A stretch of 35,403 nucleotides of DNA, taken from the IMG/VR virus record IMGVR_UViG_3300020205_003196, positions 1 through 35,403 of that record, one strand, 5' to 3'. This document shows, piece after piece, positions 11,534-30,569 of this stretch. The notes beneath the pieces are model-generated. The model ran no database searches. It was not told the origin of the DNA and saw only the letters and a program-made list of their open reading frames with translations. The stretch's first letter is position 1. Every line of letters begins with the position of its first letter. This DNA comes from a virus. A program made the position numbers and the translations under genes.

Positions 11534-12376
11534 ATGAAACGTCTAATTATTACAAGTGGAATCGTAGTGGCATTGGCAGGGTGTTCTAGTCTTGGACTGG
11601 GCACTAAAACAGCGGAGGTGTCACCCACCCCTCCGGTCACAAAGGATCAAACTATCCCTGCAGCAGGCAAATTGGATAGTCCACTGACTATTGATTTGCC
11701 CAGTTGGTATATCAAGCCTCCATCAGGAACTGATGACCACCTGTGGTTTGCTGGTACTGGATATAGTTCTGATTTGAGCATGAGTCGAGAAAAAGCCATA
11801 CTTGACAGTCAGATGAAGTTGGCAGATACAATCAATGGCTCCATGAATGCCATGATCAAGCAACAAAAATCCGACAATTCAGGATCTCTTTTTACAGATA
11901 AAACATCAATCACAATCAAGAAAATTATTGCCAACACAATAATGACTGGCTATCGAATTGAAGACAGTCGAGTGATCAGTGAGAACCGTCATTATAGAAC
12001 ATTTATCCTAGTGCGATATCCAGTGGGTGATGCCAATCGTTTGCTCAAAGACAAGCTACAGCAAGAGAGCCAAAATAACAGTTCAGATGACGCTTTACAA
12101 AAAGAACTGGGTCGAGAAATTACCACACCTCCGGTCAAAGCCAAAACTAGCAGTGTGGTGGCACCAGATCAACTGCCTAACACAGTATCTGTAACAACGG
12201 ATCCGGGACCCGGACCGTCACCCACAGCATATCAGTTTGTATCGCTGCCAACACCTACTGAGCCGCTGCCAGCTGCGGTAGCTTTACTACAAACAAACAA
12301 CAAAGAATATATCAAGCGTCGAGCCGAAGCATTACAAAAACCTGGTGCAATTGTTATGCATGAAACACTTCGCTGA
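11534..12376 (+). CDS. LPP20-like outer-membrane lipoprotein
   Basis: The 280-residue protein has a signal peptide with lipobox LAGC (Cys17). A domain at about residues 55-165 starts with LPSWYIKPPSGTDDHLWFAG and includes SMSREKAILDSQMKLADTI, the pattern of LPP20-family lipoproteins. The remainder is a low-complexity Pro/Thr/Ser tail. LPP20 proteins sit in the outer membrane of many Gram-negative bacteria without a settled enzymatic role. In a phage, altering the host surface against superinfection is a reasonable inference. It has its own promoter and a good ribosome-binding site. Confidence 0.75.
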   Translation: MKRLIITSGIVVALAGCSSLGLGTKTAEVSPTPPVTKDQTIPAAGKLDSPLTIDLPSWYIKPPSGTDDHLWFAGTGYSSDLSMSREKAILDSQMKLADTINGSMNAMIKQQKSDNSGSLFTDKTSITIKKIIANTIMTGYRIEDSRVISENRHYRTFILVRYPVGDANRLLKDKLQQESQNNSSDDALQKELGREITTPPVKAKTSSVVAPDQLPNTVSVTTDPGPGPSPTAYQFVSLPTPTEPLPAAVALLQTNNKEYIKRRAEALQKPGAIVMHETLR

Positions 12377-12400
12377 ACATAAGCTCGTACATTATACCAA

Positions 12401-13786
12401 GTGTTGGAAAATAAATATATGAATGATTTTGACAACAGCAGGTTTAATAACATAATGTCAGCGGGCTGGATCAGTGATCTTGAAAGCTCCGACAGCCGAA
12501 CACATAAAGAAAAAACAATTGAAAAAGCCTTGATGGCAGCTAAATTGGGCAGTGCCGATGCACAGGCTTTTCTGTTCAATTGCTACCAGGCGTACAATCC
12601 TTTCCATGTGTTTGGTATCAAACAGGTGCCCGAAACTGTCGGACTGACCGACCGTCCCAATCCCTGGCCAACATTTTGGGCATTGCTAGAAAGTCTTCGT
12701 ACTCGTAGCGTGACTGGTAATCGTGCAAAAGAAGCCATTGAAACATGCAGTGAATTATTTGATTCCAACGAATGGAATAATCTTGCCCGTAGAGTATTAA
12801 TCAAAGACTTGCGGTGTGGCATCACTGACAAGACATTGAACAAAGTTCTGGGTAAAACAGAATACAAGATTCCTGTGTTCACTTGCCAACTGGCACAAGA
12901 CTCTACAGATCATCCTAAAAAACTCCGGGGCATCAAACGCCTTGAAGTTAAATTGGACGGGGTACGTGTGTTAGCAGTTGTATCCGGAGATGTTTGTACA
13001 TTGTACAGTCGTAATGGCAAAGAGTTTGAAAACTTTCCGCAGATCTCAGATTTTGTTGAACAACACCGCAAGGCGTTCCAAAATAATTCAGGGTTTGGAG
13101 GACAATTTGTGCTGGATGGCGAAATTGTTGGCAAGAGTTTTCAAGCATTGATGAAGCAAGCTCAGCGCAAACGTGATGCCAAAACAAACGATATGATTTA
13201 TCATGTGTTTGACATCATGCCGTTGACCGAGTTCCGCGATGGATTTTGCAACATTAAACAAAGCAAACGCATTGAACTATTGAAACGCTCGCAAGCATTC
13301 CTACCGGAATCGGGATGTGTGCAGGTCATGCCAGGAATTGACGTGGATTTGGACACTGCCGAAGGGCATGACATAATGCAACGGTTTGCCAGCGCATCAG
13401 TTGCAGAAGGGTATGAAGGCATCATGATCAAATCAATGGATGCCCCGTATGAATGCAAACGCAGTGATTTTTGGATGAAATGGAAGCCTACCATCACAGT
13501 GGACTTGAATATTGTTGGGTTTGAAGAAGGCACCGGTCGCAATCTCGGCAGACTTGGCGCCATAATATGTGAAGGAGTTGACAATGCCAGAACTATACGT
13601 GTTAATGTTGGTAGCGGTTTGTCTGATAGCGACCGCGATGAGTATTGGGCCGCTCGCAATGAGCTGGTTGATCGAGTGGTTGAGGTTGAGGCGGACGCAG
13701 TTACACAAAACCAAGACGGATCATACAGTTTAAGATTTCCTCGATTTGTTCGTTTCCGTGGATTCGAAGCTGACGAAAAATTGTGA
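12401..13786 (+). CDS. ATP-dependent DNA ligase
   Basis: The enzyme seals nicks during phage replication and repair. The nucleotidyltransferase motifs appear in order: motif I EVKLDGVRV with the AMP-accepting Lys (codon at 12950), YSRNGKEF, LDGEIV (III), HVFDIMP (IIIa), EGIMIK (IV) and WMKWKP (V), followed by an OB-fold region. The length of 461 residues is close to T4 gp30. The start is uncertain: GTG 12401 is used here, but ATG 12419, with GGAAAA upstream, is equally possible and loses no domain. Promoter evidence before it is weak. Confidence 0.93.
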   Translation: MLENKYMNDFDNSRFNNIMSAGWISDLESSDSRTHKEKTIEKALMAAKLGSADAQAFLFNCYQAYNPFHVFGIKQVPETVGLTDRPNPWPTFWALLESLRTRSVTGNRAKEAIETCSELFDSNEWNNLARRVLIKDLRCGITDKTLNKVLGKTEYKIPVFTCQLAQDSTDHPKKLRGIKRLEVKLDGVRVLAVVSGDVCTLYSRNGKEFENFPQISDFVEQHRKAFQNNSGFGGQFVLDGEIVGKSFQALMKQAQRKRDAKTNDMIYHVFDIMPLTEFRDGFCNIKQSKRIELLKRSQAFLPESGCVQVMPGIDVDLDTAEGHDIMQRFASASVAEGYEGIMIKSMDAPYECKRSDFWMKWKPTITVDLNIVGFEEGTGRNLGRLGAIICEGVDNARTIRVNVGSGLSDSDRDEYWAARNELVDRVVEVEADAVTQNQDGSYSLRFPRFVRFRGFEADEKL

Positions 13787-13827
13787 ATCAACCAATTAAC
13801 AAACTTGATCTTCACATTCAATAACCC

Positions 13828-13842
13828 GTTGACCTGGTCAAC
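13828..13842. promoter_or_regulatory. Palindrome GTTGACC-T-GGTCAAC
   Basis: Perfect 7-bp arms around one base, 20 bases before the next ATG. One arm equals the TTGACC -35 element used elsewhere in the window, but no -10 box stands 17 bases downstream. It could be an operator or a pair of opposed -35 elements. Confidence 0.4.
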
Positions 13843-13862
13843 AATCATTTAGAAAGTTTCAA

Positions 13863-15149
13863 ATGAAGCGTCTAGCAGTTGTATTATCTTTGGCGGTGTT
13901 GTTTCTTGTTGGATGCGGAGGAGGCGGTGGTGGTGACAGTCCAACTCCGCAAGCCAAACAATCATCAATGACATACAGAGCTGATCTTCCATTGGTATCA
14001 ATGGTCCCGGCTAGTTTTGCCCGTGGTATTAAACATGTTGTGGTCGCTGGGTGGGGGTACGGTGTCTCAAGCCGACCGATCCCAGTTAAAATTTATCAGA
14101 TTAATAGTAATGGATCAGGTGCAGATGTTACTAAAGACATTCTTGGGAGCGAACAACTTGCATTGACTAATGTTCCGTTGATTGCCGATTTTAACAATGA
14201 CGGAATTGACGATATTTTTCTTCCAGGTTTTGACGATATTGGCACAATGGGACTAATATCTAGCATGGTGTTTATTAGTAGGCCTGGCCAAATTCATCAA
14301 CTAATTGAATTGCCCGGCAAGACCTGGTCGCATGGTGCTACGCCAGTGGACCTTAATAATGATGGCCATATTGATGTAATAAACAATCATGGACAAATGT
14401 GGATTAATGACGGTAAGGGTAATTTCCAGTTCAAACAACATAGTTGGGACTCCGGGTTATGGATGCATGGATCGGGCGTGTGTGCTGGAGATTTTAATAA
14501 TACTGGACGTAAACAGATTGTAATAACAGATCTCATGGTAGATGCAAACGCAGGCCCGATTGCGGACACTGTAATTTTTGAATTGAATTCAGAGTTGGTG
14601 CCAATTATATCACATACACTTCCGGTCCCAGTATTGGATAGGAATACTACTACCTCGGACGCTAGCCACGATGTTGGGTGTGTATCAGTAGATCTAAATA
14701 ACGATGGTCTATTAGATATACTAGTTTTTAGCCGGCCAAACCCCACTGTTAATAGTAATTGGACAAACCAGGGTGTGGCACAAGTGTTGATTAATCGTGG
14801 AAATTGGAAATTTGATGACATAACAGATGTTGCAATGGTGGGATACCCAACCAACACACTGATATCATATACACCTATTGTGGCTGACTTTAATGGTGAC
14901 GGGAAGCCGGACCTTTGGCTGGGATATTTTGATTTTGATTCTGGGTTAGCCAATCACGCCTGGATCAACAACGGGGCTGGAATCTTTACTAGAACATTAA
15001 AATCAATTATTAATTCTTTTAAATCCAATGGACCAATGGTGCCAATCGAATTCAATCAAGGATATGCATTTGTATATTCCATACTAACTGAACATGGGCT
15101 TACCTTGTATGTCACTCCTCCACAGTATACATTTGACCGGGCCAATTAA
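13863..15149 (+). CDS. FG-GAP/VCBS-repeat lipoprotein
   Basis: The 428-residue protein has a signal peptide ending in lipobox LVGC (Cys18) followed by a Gly run, then a repeat fold. Five calcium-loop motifs are visible: DFNNDGIDD, DLNNDGHID, DFNNTGRKQ (degenerate), DLNNDGLLD and DFNGDGKPD. Such FG-GAP beta-propellers mediate adhesion or ligand binding outside the cell membrane. The protein should be anchored in the host envelope rather than the virion. It is not known from standard T4-like genomes that I recall, so acquisition from a bacterium is likely. The gene stands between DNA ligase and the BI-1 gene. Confidence 0.88.
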   Translation: MKRLAVVLSLAVLFLVGCGGGGGGDSPTPQAKQSSMTYRADLPLVSMVPASFARGIKHVVVAGWGYGVSSRPIPVKIYQINSNGSGADVTKDILGSEQLALTNVPLIADFNNDGIDDIFLPGFDDIGTMGLISSMVFISRPGQIHQLIELPGKTWSHGATPVDLNNDGHIDVINNHGQMWINDGKGNFQFKQHSWDSGLWMHGSGVCAGDFNNTGRKQIVITDLMVDANAGPIADTVIFELNSELVPIISHTLPVPVLDRNTTTSDASHDVGCVSVDLNNDGLLDILVFSRPNPTVNSNWTNQGVAQVLINRGNWKFDDITDVAMVGYPTNTLISYTPIVADFNGDGKPDLWLGYFDFDSGLANHAWINNGAGIFTRTLKSIINSFKSNGPMVPIEFNQGYAFVYSILTEHGLTLYVTPPQYTFDRAN

Positions 15150-15209
15150 ATATATTTTATCACGCAAATACATGTAAATATGTAAACACCACCGTTGAAA
15201 GGTAATATT

Positions 15210-15896
15210 ATGTTTGGTACAATGTACACAGGAAATCTTGAATATCGAGATGCTAGCGAAATAAATTCTGCCATGGGCAGAGTTTATGGACATATGAGTT
15301 TGGCAGTGCTCACCTCTATGATTATCAGTTGGTTTGTGGGCTCTAGTCCGGATCTGCTACAGTTCTTTTTTACCGGTATCCTAAAATGGATTGTAATTTT
15401 TGCTCCATTAGTGGCAATATTTGCCATTGGATTCTTGATGGAAAAAGTAGGCAAGTCAGGAGCGCAGATCATGCTGCACGGATTTGCCGCATTGATGGGA
15501 TTGAGTTTTGCAACAATCTTTGCCATTTACACCATGGGATCGATTGTAAACGCATTTATGGGAGCGGCAGTGCTGTTTGGAGTGCTCAGTGGATATGGAT
15601 ATTTTACCAAACGCAGTTTAGACAGTGTTGGCAAATGGATGTTTGTGGGGTTGATTGCCATCGTAATCGCCAGTATAATAAATGTATTCATAGGTAGTAG
15701 TGTGGGGCAAATGGTAATTAGTGCATTGGCAATTGTTATATTTCTTGGATTAACTGCATATGACACACAAAAGATTCGTGAAGAATTGAGTTTCGACACC
15801 AATGGTGTAGCTGAAGTTCGGGGCGCATTAACGTTATACCTTGACTTTATTAATATTTTTATTCACTTGTTACAACTGTTTGGCGGTAGGAAATAA
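15210..15896 (+). CDS. Bax inhibitor-1 / YccA-family membrane protein
   Basis: The 228-residue protein has about seven hydrophobic helices. It has the family N-terminus (MGRVYGHMSLAVLTSMIISW), the central GVLSGYGYFTKRSLDSVGKWM and the terminal LTAYDTQKIREE signature with the acidic residues of the BI-1 channel. Bacterial relatives include YccA, a modulator of the FtsH membrane protease, and YbhL/YetJ-type calcium-leak channels. I chose ATG 15210 because GAAAGG lies upstream; an in-frame TTG at 15195 is less likely. Protection of phage proteins from FtsH or ion-flux control are inferences. Confidence 0.9.
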   Translation: MFGTMYTGNLEYRDASEINSAMGRVYGHMSLAVLTSMIISWFVGSSPDLLQFFFTGILKWIVIFAPLVAIFAIGFLMEKVGKSGAQIMLHGFAALMGLSFATIFAIYTMGSIVNAFMGAAVLFGVLSGYGYFTKRSLDSVGKWMFVGLIAIVIASIINVFIGSSVGQMVISALAIVIFLGLTAYDTQKIREELSFDTNGVAEVRGALTLYLDFINIFIHLLQLFGGRK

Positions 15897-15937
15897 GTGA
15901 CAATCTCACTATAACAAAACTATTAACTCCAATACCG

Positions 15938-15966
15938 TTGACAACTGCTGATTGCATTGTTATAAT
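15938..15966 (+). promoter_or_regulatory. Consensus sigma70 promoter TTGACA-17-TATAAT
   Basis: TTGACA at 15938-15943, exactly 17 bases, then TATAAT at 15961-15966. It is the best promoter in the window. It faces a leader of about 178 bases rather than an immediately adjacent gene. Confidence 0.93.
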
Positions 15967-15972
15967 TAACAT

Positions 15973-16150
15973 GCATGATCAGGGAAATAATGCAGTTCAA
16001 TAGGGTGGCGGGGTGAATCGATAACCTGGGCCTGCTACGCCTGTGGCACTGGAACGTTAGTCATTTAGGTTGCGACACTGTCTCTGGATTCGTCCAAAAC
16101 TCAGCTGATACCTGAGGGTATGCCAACAGAGAAACAAACAGGGAAAGGAT
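15973..16150 (+). ncRNA. Candidate structured leader RNA or small RNA
   Basis: The transcript predicted from the promoter at 15938 carries no convincing gene before 16157. Its 3' half folds by eye into a three-way junction: outer stem TCTCTG/CAGAGA (16081-16086 with 16127-16132), a hairpin GGA-TTCG-TCC, and a hairpin CTCAG-(7)-CTGAG. The 5' half offers GGCG/CGCC and GGT/ACC pairings. The ribosome-binding site AAAGGA at 16144-16149 follows directly. It matches no riboswitch class I know. It could be a cis-regulatory leader or a separate small RNA. Confidence 0.55.
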
Positions 16151-16156
16151 ATGCAA

Positions 16157-16468
16157 ATGTCTGTTGAAACAGAGACCTCTGCGTCGAGCATGTCTGAGTC
16201 AATCAACTCGCTTAATTTAACGCCCCTGGTCATGCACCGCATTTGGTTTGAATTGCGTGATACCAATCAGTGGTACGCAATCATGAAAGAAGCTAGGACC
16301 CTGTATGGGGGCAATTGGAAAGGTCAAGGTCGTGTCAAACGACGACTAAAAAGTGCGTGGCGCATGCCAATGGCTTATTTGATTTGGTTTGACGTGCCTG
16401 ATCCCACGTTTGGCACATGGTGTGCAGTAAAACACACGGTGATTGTGGCAAAAAATCCCGGTAAATAA
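16157..16468 (+). CDS. Small hypothetical protein behind the structured leader
   Basis: The 103-residue soluble protein has an unstructured Ser/Glu-rich N-terminus and a basic, aromatic core (MHRIWFELRDTNQWYAIM, residues about 26-43, and GRVKRRLKSAWRMPMAY). I prefer ATG 16157 to ATG 16151, because AAAGGA at 16144-16149 is seven bases from 16157 but only one base from 16151. No family is recognised. It is the gene controlled by the strongest promoter and the long leader in this window, so it may be needed early and at high level. Confidence 0.75.
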   Translation: MSVETETSASSMSESINSLNLTPLVMHRIWFELRDTNQWYAIMKEARTLYGGNWKGQGRVKRRLKSAWRMPMAYLIWFDVPDPTFGTWCAVKHTVIVAKNPGK

Positions 16469-16473
16469 ATTCT

Positions 16474-17976
16474 ATGATATTTGGTTTTAGCATTTTGACC
16501 ACAGCTCTGCTATTGAGCTTGGTAGCTGCATATTATTCAGTAGCCGGGCTTACCGCCATATTCTCCGCGGCTGCAATACCCGTGATAATCATGGGCGGCA
16601 GTTTAGAACTAGGCAAGATTGCGGCCACAGTATGGTTGCATAATAACTGGCGGCGTGCCGGGATTATGTTTAAACTATATCTAATACCGGCCATAGCATT
16701 TCTCATGGTGCTTACCAGCATGGGTATCTTTGGATATCTAAGCAAAGCACATTCAGACCAAAGTTTAGTTTCGGGTGACGTACAAAGTAGGATAGCAATC
16801 TATGATGAAAAAATCAAAACAGCACGAGAAAATATTGAAGCCAACCGCCGGCAACTCAAACAAATGGATGAGGCAGTTGACCAAGTCATGGGCCGCAGTA
16901 CAGATGAAAAAGGTGCCGACAAAGCAGTCAGCGTACGGAAAAATCAGTCCCGTGATCGCGTTGCTTTGGCCAAAGACATTGAAGCCAACCAGAAGCTTGT
17001 TGCTAAACTTAATGACGAAGCCGCACCTATTCGCGCAGAAGTACGCAAGGTAGAAGCCGATGTAGGCCCAATCAAATACATTGCCGCATTGGTATATGGC
17101 GATAATCCTGATACCAACATCTTAGAACGTGCGGTACGATTGGTAATCATAATGATTGTGTTGGTGTTTGATCCACTGGCACTGACATTGATATTGGCTG
17201 CCAACAAACAATTTGAATGGGTGAGAAAAGGCAAGGGTGGCTGGGCTCATGACGATCCCCAGGCATATCCGCCCGACGATAGTCCACTGTCCCCTGAACA
17301 GATTGCACAGATAAAAGAAACAGCCAAAGAAGATTTACCAACAGGTCCGGTTATTACCAAGACCTGGATGTCGGGTGATATTCCTAAACCCTATCCCATG
17401 ACAGAGCCCGAGGTAGAACAAGTGATAACAGAGTTTGATCGAGCTAGACATGCATACCTAGACAAACCATTTGTTCATTTTGAGAATTTAAAACCAATGG
17501 TGGCTCCCACGGAACCAGAGCCAATCACAGCATCAGTAATAGATTATGACCCAATGGATCCCAATGATTCAGTGGATATGAAAGCGGCCAAGAGTGTGTG
17601 GAAAGACCTGCATCCTAACGATACATTGAAGATGGAACGTATTAAATTGGCCAAAGGATTGATTACAGAATTGCCGTGGGTAAAACTTATTAAGAATGTA
17701 CCTACTTCGGGATTTGGTAATGTATTTCCAATGGCCGCTGGCAAAGGTGATACCTATATTCGTATAGACAGTTTACCAAATCAATTGTATAAGTTTAATG
17801 GCAACGAGTGGATCGAGGTTGACACACATACAACTAACAGTTATACTTACGATATAGCATATCTTGATTATCTCATTGAAAAACTAAGTACCGGTGAGTA
17901 CGATCCTGAATTGCTGAGTGCAAACGAGCAAGAACAAGTGACACAACGTTTACAAGACAAACCAACCGATACATGA
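16474..17976 (+). CDS. Inner-membrane protein with periplasmic or cytoplasmic coiled coil
   Basis: The 500-residue protein has about three hydrophobic helices at residues 3-90 (with GGSLELGKIAATVWLHNNW) and a charged coiled coil at about 98-195 (YDEKIKTARENIEANRRQLK and QKLVAKLND). Another hydrophobic helix follows at about 222-245 and then a long soluble tail. The tail has FPMAAGKGDTYIRIDSLPNQ near residue 420, which looks like a small domain of its own. I recall similar proteins in marine T4-like phages without a function. There is no ribosome-binding site; it starts five bases after the previous stop and overlaps clpX by four bases. Confidence 0.8.
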   Translation: MIFGFSILTTALLLSLVAAYYSVAGLTAIFSAAAIPVIIMGGSLELGKIAATVWLHNNWRRAGIMFKLYLIPAIAFLMVLTSMGIFGYLSKAHSDQSLVSGDVQSRIAIYDEKIKTARENIEANRRQLKQMDEAVDQVMGRSTDEKGADKAVSVRKNQSRDRVALAKDIEANQKLVAKLNDEAAPIRAEVRKVEADVGPIKYIAALVYGDNPDTNILERAVRLVIIMIVLVFDPLALTLILAANKQFEWVRKGKGGWAHDDPQAYPPDDSPLSPEQIAQIKETAKEDLPTGPVITKTWMSGDIPKPYPMTEPEVEQVITEFDRARHAYLDKPFVHFENLKPMVAPTEPEPITASVIDYDPMDPNDSVDMKAAKSVWKDLHPNDTLKMERIKLAKGLITELPWVKLIKNVPTSGFGNVFPMAAGKGDTYIRIDSLPNQLYKFNGNEWIEVDTHTTNSYTYDIAYLDYLIEKLSTGEYDPELLSANEQEQVTQRLQDKPTDT

Positions 17977-19166
17977 ACACATCTAAAAATCCCGATACCT
18001 GTAGTTTCTGTGGCAAACACAAAGACACAGTAACTAAACTTATTGTAGGTGAAGATGTAGCAATATGCAATGAATGCGTGGACCTATGCCAAAATTTGTT
18101 AGTAGATCAAATTGATCCTAAACCAGTTGACCACCCAAATCTCAACCCCAAACAAATACGACAACACCTTGACAAATACGTAATAGGCCAAGATCATGCT
18201 AAAATCATGCTCAGTGTGGCTATTGCCAATCATTACAAACGAATCAGGAACACAGATACCGGCGCCGAAATTGAAAAGGCCAATATTCTCATGCTTGGTC
18301 CCACCGGCTCGGGCAAAACATTGTTAGCACGTACTGTGGCACGTTATTTAGATGTTCCATTTGTGATTGCAGATGCAACTAGTTTAACTGAAGCAGGATA
18401 TGTGGGAGATGATGTTGAAAGTTTAATCAGTAGACTGTTTGCCGCAGCCGGCAACAATGTTGAAAAAACACAACAAGGTATTATATTTGTAGATGAAATT
18501 GATAAAATTACTAGGAAAAGCGAAGGCTCCAGTATCACCCGTGATGTATCGGGGGAAGGGGTACAACAAGCCTTGCTCAAGTTAGTGGAAGGTACCAAAT
18601 GTCGTATTACGGCCACAGGTGGTCGAAAACATCCGTCGGGTGATATGATTGAGATTGATACTACTAACATTTTGTTTATTGCTGGCGGTGCATTTGTTGG
18701 ATTAGAAAACATTGTAAAAAGTCGTATACAAGGTACTAGCATGGGATTTAATGCCGAAATATCAAATACACACAATGAAAAATTACATCTAGATCAAACC
18801 ACCCCCGACGATCTTGTGCGGTACGGATTAATTCCAGAATTTGTCGGACGCTTTCCTTCTTGGGTGGCTCTTAAAGAGCTTGACAAGAAAGATCTCATAC
18901 GTATTCTTAAAGAAGTCAAACACAATTATATAAGTCAATATCAATGGTTGTTCAAGCAGGATAATGTAGAATTGGCATTTACCTCAGACAGTTTGGAGTT
19001 GATTGCCGAACGGACAATTAAAAATAAAACAGGGGCTCGTGGGTTGCATTCAGAACTGGAGCGGGTGTTACTGCCACATATGTACAATCTAGCACAATAT
19101 CGCACAGATGGAATTGATCATGTGGATATATCAACTGAGGAGGTGAACATTCCAAAAGAATTATAA
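17973..19166 (+). CDS. clpX: ATP-dependent unfoldase ClpX
   Basis: ClpX unfolds tagged proteins and feeds them to ClpP. The 397-residue protein is nearly complete against 424 in E. coli. It has zinc-finger Cys10, 13, 32 and 35, Walker A GPTGSGKT (109-116), pore loop GYVG (142-145), Walker B IIFVDE (170-175), RKH loop (218-220) and sensor-2 GAR (354-356). The ClpP-docking tripeptide is MGF (257-259) rather than IGF, so docking to a host ClpP is probably kept. No clpP is in this window. Its ATG overlaps the preceding stop without a ribosome-binding site, so translation is coupled to the membrane-protein gene. Confidence 0.96.
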
Positions 19167-19179
19167 TTCACAGCCCTGG

Positions 19180-19187
19180 TATAAATA
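19180..19187 (+). promoter_or_regulatory. T4-late-like promoter box TATAAATA before dnaK
   Basis: The exact T4 late consensus lies 66 bases before the dnaK ATG, in an 86-base gap. Downstream, 19194-19217 can fold (GTAGA/TCTAC plus CCC/GGG). No good -35 hexamer is present, as expected for a late promoter. Confidence 0.55.
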
Positions 19188-19252
19188 TTATAGTAGATGC
19201 CCATGGTGGGGTCTACATTACAAAGTCATCTTGCTTTTTAAAGGAGAAAAAT

Positions 19253-21130
19253 ATGACAAAGCATGTTATTGGCGTGGATTTAGGAACAACTAATTCCTGT
19301 GTAGCCATAATTGAGAACGGAATCCCCAAAATCATTGAAAACAGTGAAGGTGCTAGAACAACACCGTCAATCGTTGCCTACGCCAATGATGAAATCTTAG
19401 TAGGTGCTAGCGCAAAGCGTCAAGCAGTTACTAATCCAAAAAATACAGTATATGCCGCAAAACGGTTAATCGGTCGTAAATTCACTGAACAAGCTGTACA
19501 AAAAGATATTGACTTAATGCCATACAAAATCGTACAAAATGATAACGGTGATGCATGGGTTCAAGTTAATGATGACAAGTTAGCACCTCCGCAAATCAGT
19601 GCTGAAGTCTTACGCAAAATGAAAAAGACTGCGGAAGACTATCTTGGACATGAAGTAACACAGGCAGTTATTACTGTACCTGCTTATTTCAATGATAGTC
19701 AACGTCAAGCAACTAAAGATGCAGGACGTATTGCAGGCTTAGAAGTATTGCGTATCATTAACGAACCAACTGCTGCTGCATTGGCATATGGTGTAGATAA
19801 ACAAGACAAGCGTGACCGTAAAATTGCTGTCTATGACTTGGGTGGTGGTACATTTGACGTATCTATCATTGAGTTAGCAGATGTTGACGGTGAAAAACAA
19901 ATTGAAGTATTATCAACAAACGGAGATACATTCTTAGGTGGTGAAGACTTTGACCAACGTATCATGGATTTCTTAGTTGAAGAATTTAAGAAAGACTCCG
20001 GCGTTGATTTAACCAAAGACGTACTAGCATTACAACGTCTAAAAGAAGCCGCTGAGAAAGCTAAAATTGAATTGTCAAGTTCAAATCAAACTGATGTTAA
20101 CTTGCCATACATTACAGCAGATGCAAATGGTCCTAAACATATGAATGTTAAACTAACCCGTGCTAAGTTGGAAAGTTTAGTTGATGAATTAATTACACGT
20201 TCAATACAACCGTGTAAGCAAGCATTGAAGGATGCTAATGTTAATGTTTCTGACATTGACGAAGTTATTTTAGTTGGTGGTATGACACGTATGCCTAAAG
20301 TTATTGAAACAGTTGAGAAATTGTTTGGTAAGGCACCACGTAAAGACGTTAACCCAGACGAAGCAGTTGCTGCCGGAGCAGCTATTCAAGGTGCTGTATT
20401 AAGCGGTGATCGCAAAGACGTACTATTGTTAGACGTTACTCCATTAAGTTTGGGCATTGAAACAATGGGCGGAGTCTTTACTAAGATTATTCAAAAGAAC
20501 ACAACCATTCCAACTAAAGCATCACAAACTTTTAGTACTGCGGAAGATAATCAACCAGCAGTTACTATCAAAGTTGGGCAAGGTGAACGTGAGATGTTTG
20601 GATATAACAAAAATCTCGGTGAGTTCAACTTAGATGGGATTGCACCTGCACAACGTGGTAAACCTCAAATTGAAGTTACATTTGATATTGATGCAAATGG
20701 TATCATGCATATTAGTGCAAAAGATAAGGGCACAGGTAAAGAGAACAAGATTACTATTAAATCTAGTTCTGGATTAAGTGAATCTGAAATACAACAAATG
20801 GTTAAAGATGCTGAATTAAATGCAGAAGCGGATAAGAAGCAAGTTGAATTGATTCAATCACGTAACAATGCTGAAGGTACATATAATTCCTTTAAGAAGG
20901 ATTTTGATGAGTACAAGGATCAAGTAACTGAAGAAGAAAAAGCTAAAGCAGAAACTGCAATGAATGCTATCCAAGAAGCACTTAAAGGTGAAGATGTAGA
21001 AGCAATCAGAAAAGCTACAACAGATTTATACGAAGCAATGAACCCGATTACTGGTAAAAAGTATGAAGCGGAAGAAAAGGCAAAAAAAGAATCTGAAGTA
21101 GTTGACGCAGACGCTACTGAAACTGTTTAA
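19253..21130 (+). CDS. dnaK: Chaperone DnaK (Hsp70), full length
   Basis: The 625-residue protein is a complete Hsp70: GVDLGTTNS phosphate loop, [65 protein letters not shown] at the start of the substrate-binding domain, and a helical lid to the end. The E. coli EEVDKK-type tail is replaced by DADATETV. The strong AAAGGAG site and late-type promoter suggest high expression. Codon use differs from its neighbours (more TTA, GTT and GAT, few GCC), which fits later acquisition or tuning for expression. No dnaJ or grpE is in the window, so host cochaperones are presumably used. Hsp20 follows after 11 bases. Confidence 0.97.
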
Positions 21131-21141
21131 GGAGAAAACAA

Positions 21142-21594
21142 ATGACAAAAACTTTACACCTTCGTTCCCTTGATATTCCAGGAATTCACAAATTTGGTAT
21201 CGGTTTTGATAACATGTTTGATGAACTGTTGCGAGTGAATGCTCAACAATCAAACAACAATTATCCACCGTACAACATTGTACAAGTCAATGACGACGAG
21301 TTTATGATTAGTATTGCTGTTGCAGGATTTGGTCACGATAATCTAACAGTTACCAAGGAAAAAAACTTCTTGATAATTGAAGGCAAAGAGTATGAATCCA
21401 CTGGTAAAAAAATTGAGCCAAACTATCTACACAAAGGTATCAGCAACAGAGATTTCCGTAGAGAATTCCAATTGGCGGATCATGTGGAAATTAATGGAGC
21501 ACACCTTGAACTTGGTATATTGAGCGTTCACTTAAAACGTGAAGTTCCTGAAGAAGCCAAACCAAAGACCATTGCTATCACTCACACTTTGTGA
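21142..21594 (+). CDS. Small heat-shock protein Hsp20
   Basis: The 150-residue protein has the IbpA-like alpha-crystallin domain: YPPYNIVQVNDDEFMISIAV at about residues 41-60, NLTVTKEKNFLIIEGKE, and the ISNRDFRREFQLADHVEI strand block, with a short C-terminal tail (KPKTIAITHTL) that holds an IxI-like motif. Hsp20 holds unfolding proteins for DnaK. Hsp20 genes are common in T4-like marine phages, but here the gene sits in an operon with dnaK (gap 11 bases, AAGGAG site), so the pair could form a working holdase-refoldase set. Confidence 0.94.
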   Translation: MTKTLHLRSLDIPGIHKFGIGFDNMFDELLRVNAQQSNNNYPPYNIVQVNDDEFMISIAVAGFGHDNLTVTKEKNFLIIEGKEYESTGKKIEPNYLHKGISNRDFRREFQLADHVEINGAHLELGILSVHLKREVPEEAKPKTIAITHTL

Positions 21595-29573: not shown

Positions 29574-30569
29574 TTAAAATAGTCCCAATCGCTTCCAATC
29601 TGCACGAATCTTGGATTTAACTGCCGCAGGCAATGCAACATAATCTAAATCGTCAGCCATTTTGTCACCGTTGGCAAAACACCAATCAAAAAATGTCAAT
29701 GCACTTTTTACATCTGCTGGTTTGTCAGATTTTAATGGCACCAATATAAATGTAGCACCGCTGATTGGCCAGGTCTCGCGGCCTGCTTGATTGGTCAGAA
29801 TCTGATAGTATGATCGGTTCCAATCCGCACCATCGGCAGCAGCCTTAAAGGAATCCTCTGAGGGTGTTACCCAAGTTCCGGCAGCATTTTGAACATTAAC
29901 CCAATTCATTTTGGTTTGTTTTACATAGGCAAATTCAACATATCCAATGGAGCCTGGCAGTTGTCTAACCATAGCAGCCACTCCTTCGTTGCCCTTGCCA
30001 CCAGCACCAGCACGCCAGTTAACTGCGGTACCTTCACCAATGGTATCTTTAAACTCTCGACTGATTTTGCTTAGATAGTTGGTCCATATAAATGTTGTAC
30101 CCGATCCATCTGCACGGCGAACCACTGTGATTGCTTGGTCAGCCAACGCTAACTTGGGGTTCAATGCAGTAATAGCAGGATCATTCCATTTGGTAATCTT
30201 GCCCAAGTAAATATCAGCAAGAACCATGCCTGTCAATCTCATTGATCCAGGATCAATGCCCTTGACATTAATAACTGGAACCACTCCACCTATCACTGCA
30301 GGAAATTGAAACAAGCCCAATGCTGCCAATCGGTCGTCAGGCAGCGGCATATCACTGGCACCAAATGCCACAGTTCGAGATTCAATTTGTTTAAGTCCAG
30401 CGCCCGACCCTATGCTTTGATAGTTGACCTGTATACTAGTGGCTTTATTATAGGCTTCGGCCCATTTTGAATACAGTGGAGCAGGGAATGTTGCACCTGC
30501 TCCATTGATGTTCTGTGCTTGTACGGCGAATGTCATGGCCGTTAATAAAATAGCAAGTAGTTTTTTCAC
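29574..30569 (-). CDS. pstS: Phosphate ABC-transporter substrate-binding protein PstS
   Basis: PstS captures phosphate in the periplasm for the PstCAB importer. The 331-residue protein has a signal peptide (cleavage near AVQA-QN) and phosphate-loop motifs INGAGATFPAPLYSKW, IGSGAGLKQI, FGASDMPL, VRRADGSGTTFIW and the late GSIGYVEFAY. It lacks the rest of the pst operon, so it must act with host PstCAB. This is the pattern known for pstS in marine cyanophages, where it raises phosphate uptake during infection. A Pho box precedes it and a terminator follows. GGAGA near the ATG is a good ribosome-binding site. Confidence 0.96.
   Translation of the reverse strand: MKKLLAILLTAMTFAVQAQNINGAGATFPAPLYSKWAEAYNKATSIQVNYQSIGSGAGLKQIESRTVAFGASDMPLPDDRLAALGLFQFPAVIGGVVPVINVKGIDPGSMRLTGMVLADIYLGKITKWNDPAITALNPKLALADQAITVVRRADGSGTTFIWTNYLSKISREFKDTIGEGTAVNWRAGAGGKGNEGVAAMVRQLPGSIGYVEFAYVKQTKMNWVNVQNAAGTWVTPSEDSFKAAADGADWNRSYYQILTNQAGRETWPISGATFILVPLKSDKPADVKSALTFFDWCFANGDKMADDLDYVALPAAVKSKIRADWKRLGLF

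Follow-up and report, generated by a model that had tools for sequence, protein, structure and literature searches.

The window analysed here is a stretch of 35,403 bases from a large phage (IMG/VR virus record IMGVR_UViG_3300020205_003196), whose relatives at the same locus lie on contigs of up to 364 kb. Within it, the untranslated leader of a small gene, orf105, folds together with the first 27 codons of that gene into one RNA domain of 263 nucleotides (nt), closed end to end. The domain represents a family of structured RNAs that is well supported by comparison of its homologues and has no entry in Rfam, and at least 72 distinct versions of it exist in large phages. Comparison between loci establishes its helices, the pairing of its Shine-Dalgarno (SD) sequence, its single copy and its position in the operon. 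The RNA probably sets when a set of phage stress-protein genes is made, and we consider it moderately probable that it is a translational gate, acting in cis at the head of this stress-protein operon. The promoter, the domain and the first gene are placed as follows.

15938..15966, + strand: sigma70-type promoter, TTGACA-17-TATAAT with TG before the -10 element, kept in 49/49 homologous leaders
15973..16235, + strand: whole structured RNA domain, 263 nt, end-to-end closed, made of leader, SD, start codon and codons 1-27
16157..16468, + strand: orf105, 103 amino acids from the conserved start at 16157 (105 amino acids from 16151)

The promoter had been picked out in an earlier sequence-only reading as a consensus TTGACA-17-TATAAT element, and it is real. 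It is the best-matching site in 12000-20000, the sole one with 12/12 matches among 31 promoter-like sites there. A -35/-10 pair with a spacing of 16-18 nt is present in all 49 homologous leaders, with GCAT just 3' of it at a distance constant within 2 nt; exact TTGACA occurs in 43 of the 49, and so does exact TATAAT. Transcription would start at 15973, the G of GCATG. A leaderless upstream open reading frame (ORF) beginning at this GCATG was ruled out by the alignments, as the relative L204 has GCATA and the frame ends vary (relatives are cited by locus number). The same reading had proposed a transcript of about 178 bases before any gene. The untranslated leader stands, and its length becomes 184 nt, since in homologues the gene begins at the ATG that corresponds to 16157, not at 16151. 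In the scan of 12000-20000, no intrinsic-terminator-like site was found on the + strand between the leader and orf105.

Relatives of the small protein were collected from IMG/VR viral contigs in successive searches, which gave 4, then 19 and then 202, of which 80 were kept for locus work. No relative of orf105 was found in 50,697 phage records or in bacterial and archaeal genomes, and no named phage gave a DNA match to the window. A DNA pattern derived from the leader matched 73 stretches in IMG/VR; together with the loci in hand these gave 48 distinct leaders, or 49 with L015, and the same gene start lies downstream of the leader in 49/49. The covariance model R1, built on the 49 leaders, matches 80/80 loci picked by protein alone, and gives one strong match per record in 18/18 records of 35-364 kb. 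The RNA is therefore single copy and inseparable from orf105 in the loci examined, where it was never met without that gene. Alignment A4, with 47 distinct rows, was not fitted to the structure, while A5 was model-fitted; A6 is the set of 49 leaders without L205 (at a contig end) and L201 (a duplicate), and the protein sets are without L205 and L018 (whose ORF continues in another frame, 204 amino acids). We dropped the idea of equating these phages with the jumbo-phage lineage named moraphages, because the predicted moraphage hosts are Bacteroidota (PMC12619734).

The evidence that carries the finding lies in the helices that join the leader to the gene or stand inside the gene. All column pairs of the leader and 105 coding bases were scanned, and leader-gene pairs came near the top, including a helix of 12 base pairs (bp) between the first 12 nt and codons 23-27.

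15973..15984, + strand: helix P1, 5' strand, presumed first 12 nt of the transcript, pairs with 16224-16235
16224..16235, + strand: helix P1, 3' strand, codon 23 to the first base of codon 27
16072..16075, + strand: helix PM, 5' strand, GMGA in the leader, pairs with 16208-16211 and abuts the leader arm PA
16208..16211, + strand: helix PM, 3' strand, UCKC, codons 18-19
16163..16167, + strand: helix PX, 5' strand, codons 3-4, pairs with 16203-16207
16203..16207, + strand: helix PX, 3' strand, codons 16-17, abuts PM
16173..16195, + strand: intragenic hairpin PY, formed by 16173-16176 and 16192-16195

Each of the 12 pairs of P1 is formed in 45-47 of the 47 leaders, against 1/47 at the next inner position (16223). 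The four pairs of PM are formed in 47/47, with the second pair A-U in 25 and C-G in 22; its flanks pair in 0/47 on each side, and the next position on one outer flank in 21/44. PX is 99.6% paired, with its five pairs in 46-47/47 and 0-1/47 on each side, and PY is 97.3% paired, with four pairs in 42-47/47 and double changes in all four. Taken together, P1, PM, PX and PY are paired in 99.1% of 1,175 pair-by-leader cells (47 distinct leaders), and pairing falls to 30-43% when the partners are slid by 1-3 columns. Double changes occur in 15 of the 25 pairs, where shuffles give 7.2 +/- 1.1 and 0/500 reach 15. Examples are L155, with GCAUGGGC vs GCCCAUGC, and L017, with CUGGGG/CCCCAG where most have CAAGG/CCUUG; a G-C to A-U change occurs in P1 of L204, and in PX of L155 and L015 by way of codon 3. 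An initial idea that GCAUG pairs with UAUGC of the leader was superseded by P1, which is preferred because it has far more covariation.

The helices also hold in held-out leaders, namely 25 of the 80 protein-found loci, the remaining loci repeating leaders already used. In these, P1 is paired in 289/300 cells, PX in 125/125 and PY in 98/100, numbers to be read with the knowledge that a number of the 25 are closely related to training leaders, that L231 is the same contig as L011 (outside the helix-derivation set, though among the loci found earlier), and that six of the 25 lack one codon, for which the reading was shifted by 3 nt in a choice made once an initial run was in. PM is paired in 92/92 cells of the 23 leaders in which it was located by motif; the other two also pair, as GCGA/TCGC, and the new pair types U-G and U-A appear. 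Under a tree-aware null, which is strict, only three single pairs reach E<0.05, two of them leader-gene; the next pair, in PA, has E 0.067 and is tied with non-pairs, and the remaining case rests on counts. Coding controls gave 0 helices with at least two covarying pairs in three regions, all from the same operon, against 6 in the domain. In single-sequence folds, P1 has a mean probability of at least 0.95 in 11 of 12. The sequence-only reading had ended the structure at the ribosome-binding site, at 16156, which is too short, as the fold runs on to 16235, inside the gene.

The SD sequence is itself part of this fold.

16147..16162, + strand: SD mini-hairpin, GG(A/U) of the SD with (U/A)CU of codon 2, in many cases lengthened to 5 bp by way of the start codon

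The three core pairs between the SD (GGA or GGU after AA) and UCU/ACU of codon 2 are present in 72/72 leaders, and most leaders have 4-5 pairs. The exchange between A-U and U-A in this hairpin took at least 5 changes on a tree built from the remainder of the protein, a count that uses about 80 residues and is probably inflated by poor resolution. The hairpin abuts PX (16162/16163), PX abuts PM (16207/16208) and PM abuts PA (16075/16076), and in the resulting four-way junction of PM, PA, the SD hairpin and PX the only unpaired bases are AAA 16144-16146.

The 3' third of the RNA is codons 1-27 of orf105 in every locus, and these codons are written under unusual constraint. Among shared residues, the use of the same codon, compared with the expectation from codon usage, is 0.83 vs 0.32 at codons 2-10, 0.75 vs 0.28 at codons 8-22 and 0.84 vs 0.33 at codons 23-30, falling to 0.55 vs 0.43 at codons 31-60 and 0.56 vs 0.39 at codons 61-103. 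The three codon positions are almost equally diverse in codons 2-27 (0.20/0.16/0.23), while the body shows a coding-like pattern (0.35/0.31/0.51). By sequence comparison, codons 2-30 are under extreme synonymous constraint, acting on the RNA. The overlapped stretch is probably translated, because frame 0 is open in 34/34 distinct sequences (a count that leaves out six of 49 rows), with stops in 27/34 and 34/34 for the other frames. A constraint on the N-terminal peptide as a signal, tag or propeptide, with apparent helices produced by shared ancestry, would fit the good conservation of codons 2-27 also as amino acids. This account is scarcely credible, given that synonymous sites are as constrained as the others, that the amino acids at codons 2 and 3 change along with their pairing partners, and that the helices hold in held-out sequences.

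A more serious alternative is that the 263-nt domain is itself a product, a functional RNA in its own right, either stable or part of a ribonucleoprotein, cut from the mRNA or made beside it. It would be abundant early in infection, would perhaps be bound by its own basic protein, and would have had its 3' third overwritten by the 27 codons that encode residues 1-27, a part of Orf105 with little structure in the model; each molecule would then be either a folded RNA or a translated mRNA. The pairing of 5' end to 3' end over 12 bp, the conserved near-consensus promoter, the flat codon-position diversity and the highly conserved unpaired stretches would all suit such an RNA, as would the AlphaFold model of Orf105, in which residues 1-18 almost all have a predicted local distance difference test (pLDDT) value below 50. 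Against it, the hairpin of SD and start codon is kept in every one of the 72 leaders, the reading frame is open throughout, and the RNA is never found without its gene. We regard it as unlikely.

16002..16042, + strand: hairpin P2, 16002-16012 with 16031-16042, one bulged base
16076..16143, + strand: arm PA, 16076-16081 with 16138-16143, bearing a three-way junction
16082-16085/16128-16131 (PB), 16086-16095 (hp1, a TTCG hairpin) and 16100-16116 (hp2, a 5-bp hairpin), + strand: three-way junction
16045..16048, + strand: pseudoknot strand GGCA, pairs with UGCC 16121-16124
16121..16124, + strand: pseudoknot strand UGCC, partner of GGCA 16045-16048

A three-way junction in the leader had been proposed from the one sequence, and comparison shows it to be real. 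In A4, PB, hp1 and hp2 are 88-97% paired, and P2, P3, PA, PB, hp1 and hp2 together are paired in 84.2% of cells. Compensatory change in homologous leaders, which the sequence-only reading had put forward as the check, lies far above shuffles, with 219 double-change cells in A4 against 91.7 +/- 7.8 (at most 67 with partners slid) and 248 in A5 against 91.5 +/- 7.7. P2 (helices 1-2) is 87% and 90% paired, with double changes in 8 of 11 pairs; the hairpin P3, in the region 16048-16068, is 62-63% paired, which is too little to claim. The leader folded alone is no better than shuffles: 15973-16156 has z +0.71, and its last 81 nt have z +0.33. A chance fold of one sequence is nevertheless ruled out by the comparison across homologues. 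The pseudoknot GGCA/UGCC is 98.9% paired with little variation, and by inspection its first G-C is replaced by A-U in the held-out L262 and L264. The conserved unpaired stretches are GUGGCA, UAARUC, AAAAC and GUAUGCC.

Such a core raises the prospect of a riboswitch, in which the conserved unpaired bases and the pseudoknot bind a small molecule or ion and close or open the SD hairpin. The complex fold with its invariant unpaired bases, the scarcely varying pseudoknot and an SD hairpin able to serve as expression platform are what a riboswitch would show. The downstream genes, on the other hand, suggest no metabolite, the RNA is single copy in one phage lineage, and aptamer helices within a coding region would be unusual. 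Rfam 15 gave no family at the gathering score in the window, and at E<=10 only unrelated weak matches in 15930-16300. No riboswitch class matched at the leader, in the window or in 8 loci scanned, and in the window the alpha-operon model (Alpha_RBS) gave no match either. The sequence-only reading had recognised no known riboswitch class, and we judge a riboswitch to be distinctly unlikely. A weak Rfam match in the window to the hairpin ribozyme (E 0.24) was set aside.

The genes behind the RNA are those of a stress-protein operon.

16474..17976, + strand: mem500, a membrane/coiled-coil protein by prediction, with its start 5 nt behind the orf105 stop
17973..19166, + strand: ClpX homologue, its start overlapping the mem500 stop (ATGA)

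Where a locus has enough flank, the RNA is followed by orf105, mem500 and ClpX, and then by DnaK and/or Hsp20; the exceptions are L165, with its best mem500 match about 1 kb further on, and L159, with ClpX about 0.8 kb further on. The best matches of the DnaK include Comamonadaceae and other Burkholderiales at 73-76%, and a Burkholderiales-like DnaK is consistent with a host able to read this promoter and SD. The carriers are large freshwater phages, with Burkholderiales among the nearest cellular relatives of their DnaK. Orf105 is basic, with an isoelectric point of 10.3 for its body in the window and 9.7-11.0 in 47/47 proteins, and residues 27-98 are modelled with confidence as a ferredoxin-like alpha/beta fold. 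No sequence relative below E 1 was found among solved structures, and Foldseek gave no match to the model at E<=0.001; the best match by VIA-align 2 has Z 6.9, to a common alpha/beta arrangement. Separately, weak relatives of the mem500 segment from residue 25 to about residue 255 occur in 13 named phage records, the jumbo phages XacN1, RAS14 and SCTP-2 among them. The RNA was found in 0/3 loci of mem500-like genes in Xanthomonas phage XacN1, Stenotrophomonas phage RAS14 and Pelagibacter phage Mosig, and in two of these three, as translated, the neighbour differs from that in the orf105 operon and is presumably GroES-like.

An operon that encodes ClpX, DnaK and/or Hsp20 also suggests a heat or stress switch without a dedicated ligand, where the SD hairpin, weak and with G-U pairs among its 3-5 bp, would be opened by temperature or by ribosome load; sub-threshold ROSE_3 matches just before hsp20 or dnaK in three relatives point the same way. 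A thermometer, however, needs no 12-bp end-to-end helix, four-way junction or invariant loops, and the leader itself matches no thermometer family: the ROSE models gave no match at the leader in the window or in the 8 loci, the weak ROSE_3 matches lying elsewhere. We therefore hold this switch to be very improbable.

The ROSE_3 matches, L015:7397-7463 (E 0.018), L020:7468-7531 (0.29) and L003:4498-4564 (3.2), each reach the start of an hsp20 or dnaK gene of the same operon or run slightly beyond it, and suggest RNA thermometers borne by phages. Directly before hsp20 there are also weak matches to the Rfam freshwater-2 RNA, at 21116-21144 of the window (E 5), L196:3701-3781 (3) and L181:5049-5127 on the minus strand (4.3), so that the freshwater-2 family may include a phage hsp20 leader.

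From the arrangement of these parts we infer how a gate would work, including its repression and coupling. A strong host-type promoter would give an mRNA whose first 263 nt, the leader and codons 1-27, fold into one closed domain, with the 5' end paired to codons 23-27 through P1. Stacking could hold the weak SD hairpin shut, because PA lies flush against PM and the SD hairpin against PX. Once folded, the domain would mask the ribosome-binding site and keep the 5' end in duplex, whereas with the fold open, or never completed, orf105 would be translated. Gating of orf105 should also gate mem500 and clpX by translational coupling, given the gap of 5 nt between orf105 and mem500 and the overlap of mem500 with clpX. 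The likeliest effector is basic Orf105 binding its own RNA in autogenous control, which we put forward as a tentative candidate, possible rather than probable. The sequence-only reading had offered a new cis-regulatory RNA or a small RNA acting on host mRNAs. The absence of an Rfam match, the strong covariation, the one strong copy per record upstream of one operon and the conserved SD hairpin leave the former well supported; for the latter, with a 3' third that is shared with orf105 codons in every locus, no evidence was found, and no target search was made.

Several points weigh against the gate. The whole case for the RNA and the gate is comparative, and the energy support for the domain of the window is weak (z -1.96). 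PX is not recovered in the single-sequence fold of the window (0/5 pairs) or in 10 of the 12 sequences folded. Masking of the SD may be partial, because its hairpin is weak, with 3-5 bp and G-U pairs. An exactly paired 5' end is also expected of a stable free-standing RNA. The autogenous step would rest on basic charge, position and analogy with the uS4 and uS15 operators, and Orf105 showed no recognised RNA-binding family in family and sequence searches, its fold being a common one.

Three other genes of the window were noted. At 15195-15896, upstream of the promoter, lies a Bax inhibitor-1 family membrane protein (Pfam Bax1-I, E 3.9e-51), present in only some relatives, and at 13863-15149 a lipoprotein-like protein with FG-GAP repeats. 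An ORF at 29574-30569 on the minus strand resembles, by eye, a PstS-type phosphate-binding protein.

A literature search found no description of this RNA, its coverage being thin for subscription journals. With this family one can test concretely how the timing of a phage's own ClpX/DnaK/Hsp20 operon is set, and how the same bases can serve both a coding region and a large RNA fold. Among known systems, the mRNAs of hok-type type I toxins are kept translationally inert and stable by end-to-end closing; there it is the 3' end that folds back, an antisense RNA takes part, and the mRNA encodes a small membrane toxin. End-to-end closing is common to both, but the 3'-end fold-back of hok is not seen here, and the first gene encodes a basic 103-amino-acid protein with an alpha/beta model, not a small hydrophobic membrane toxin. 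In the Escherichia coli alpha operon, the operator for uS4 is described as a pseudoknot holding the rpsM ribosome-binding site (PMC10931766). As in the alpha operon, the fold described here takes in the SD and start codon of the first cistron. It has no Rfam match and differs in sequence and fold, with a 5' end paired to codons 23-27 and two helices inside the gene, and its putative effector is a phage protein without assigned function. The same source describes E. coli rpsO, where uS15 exerts autogenous control at initiation through a fold embracing the SD and start codon (PMC10931766); that fold is a leader pseudoknot, and here a 263-nt domain is closed by codons 23-27. Distant parts of an mRNA also pair and block initiation in icaR of Staphylococcus aureus (PMC3868564), but there it is the 3' untranslated region that pairs with the SD, whereas in the present RNA the partner of the SD is codon 2 and that of the 5' end is a run of early codons. 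Leaders that control translation are known, and what is unusual here is a 5' end closed by codons 23-27, an SD built into a four-way junction as one of its arms, and a run of 27 codons that obeys the rules of an RNA.
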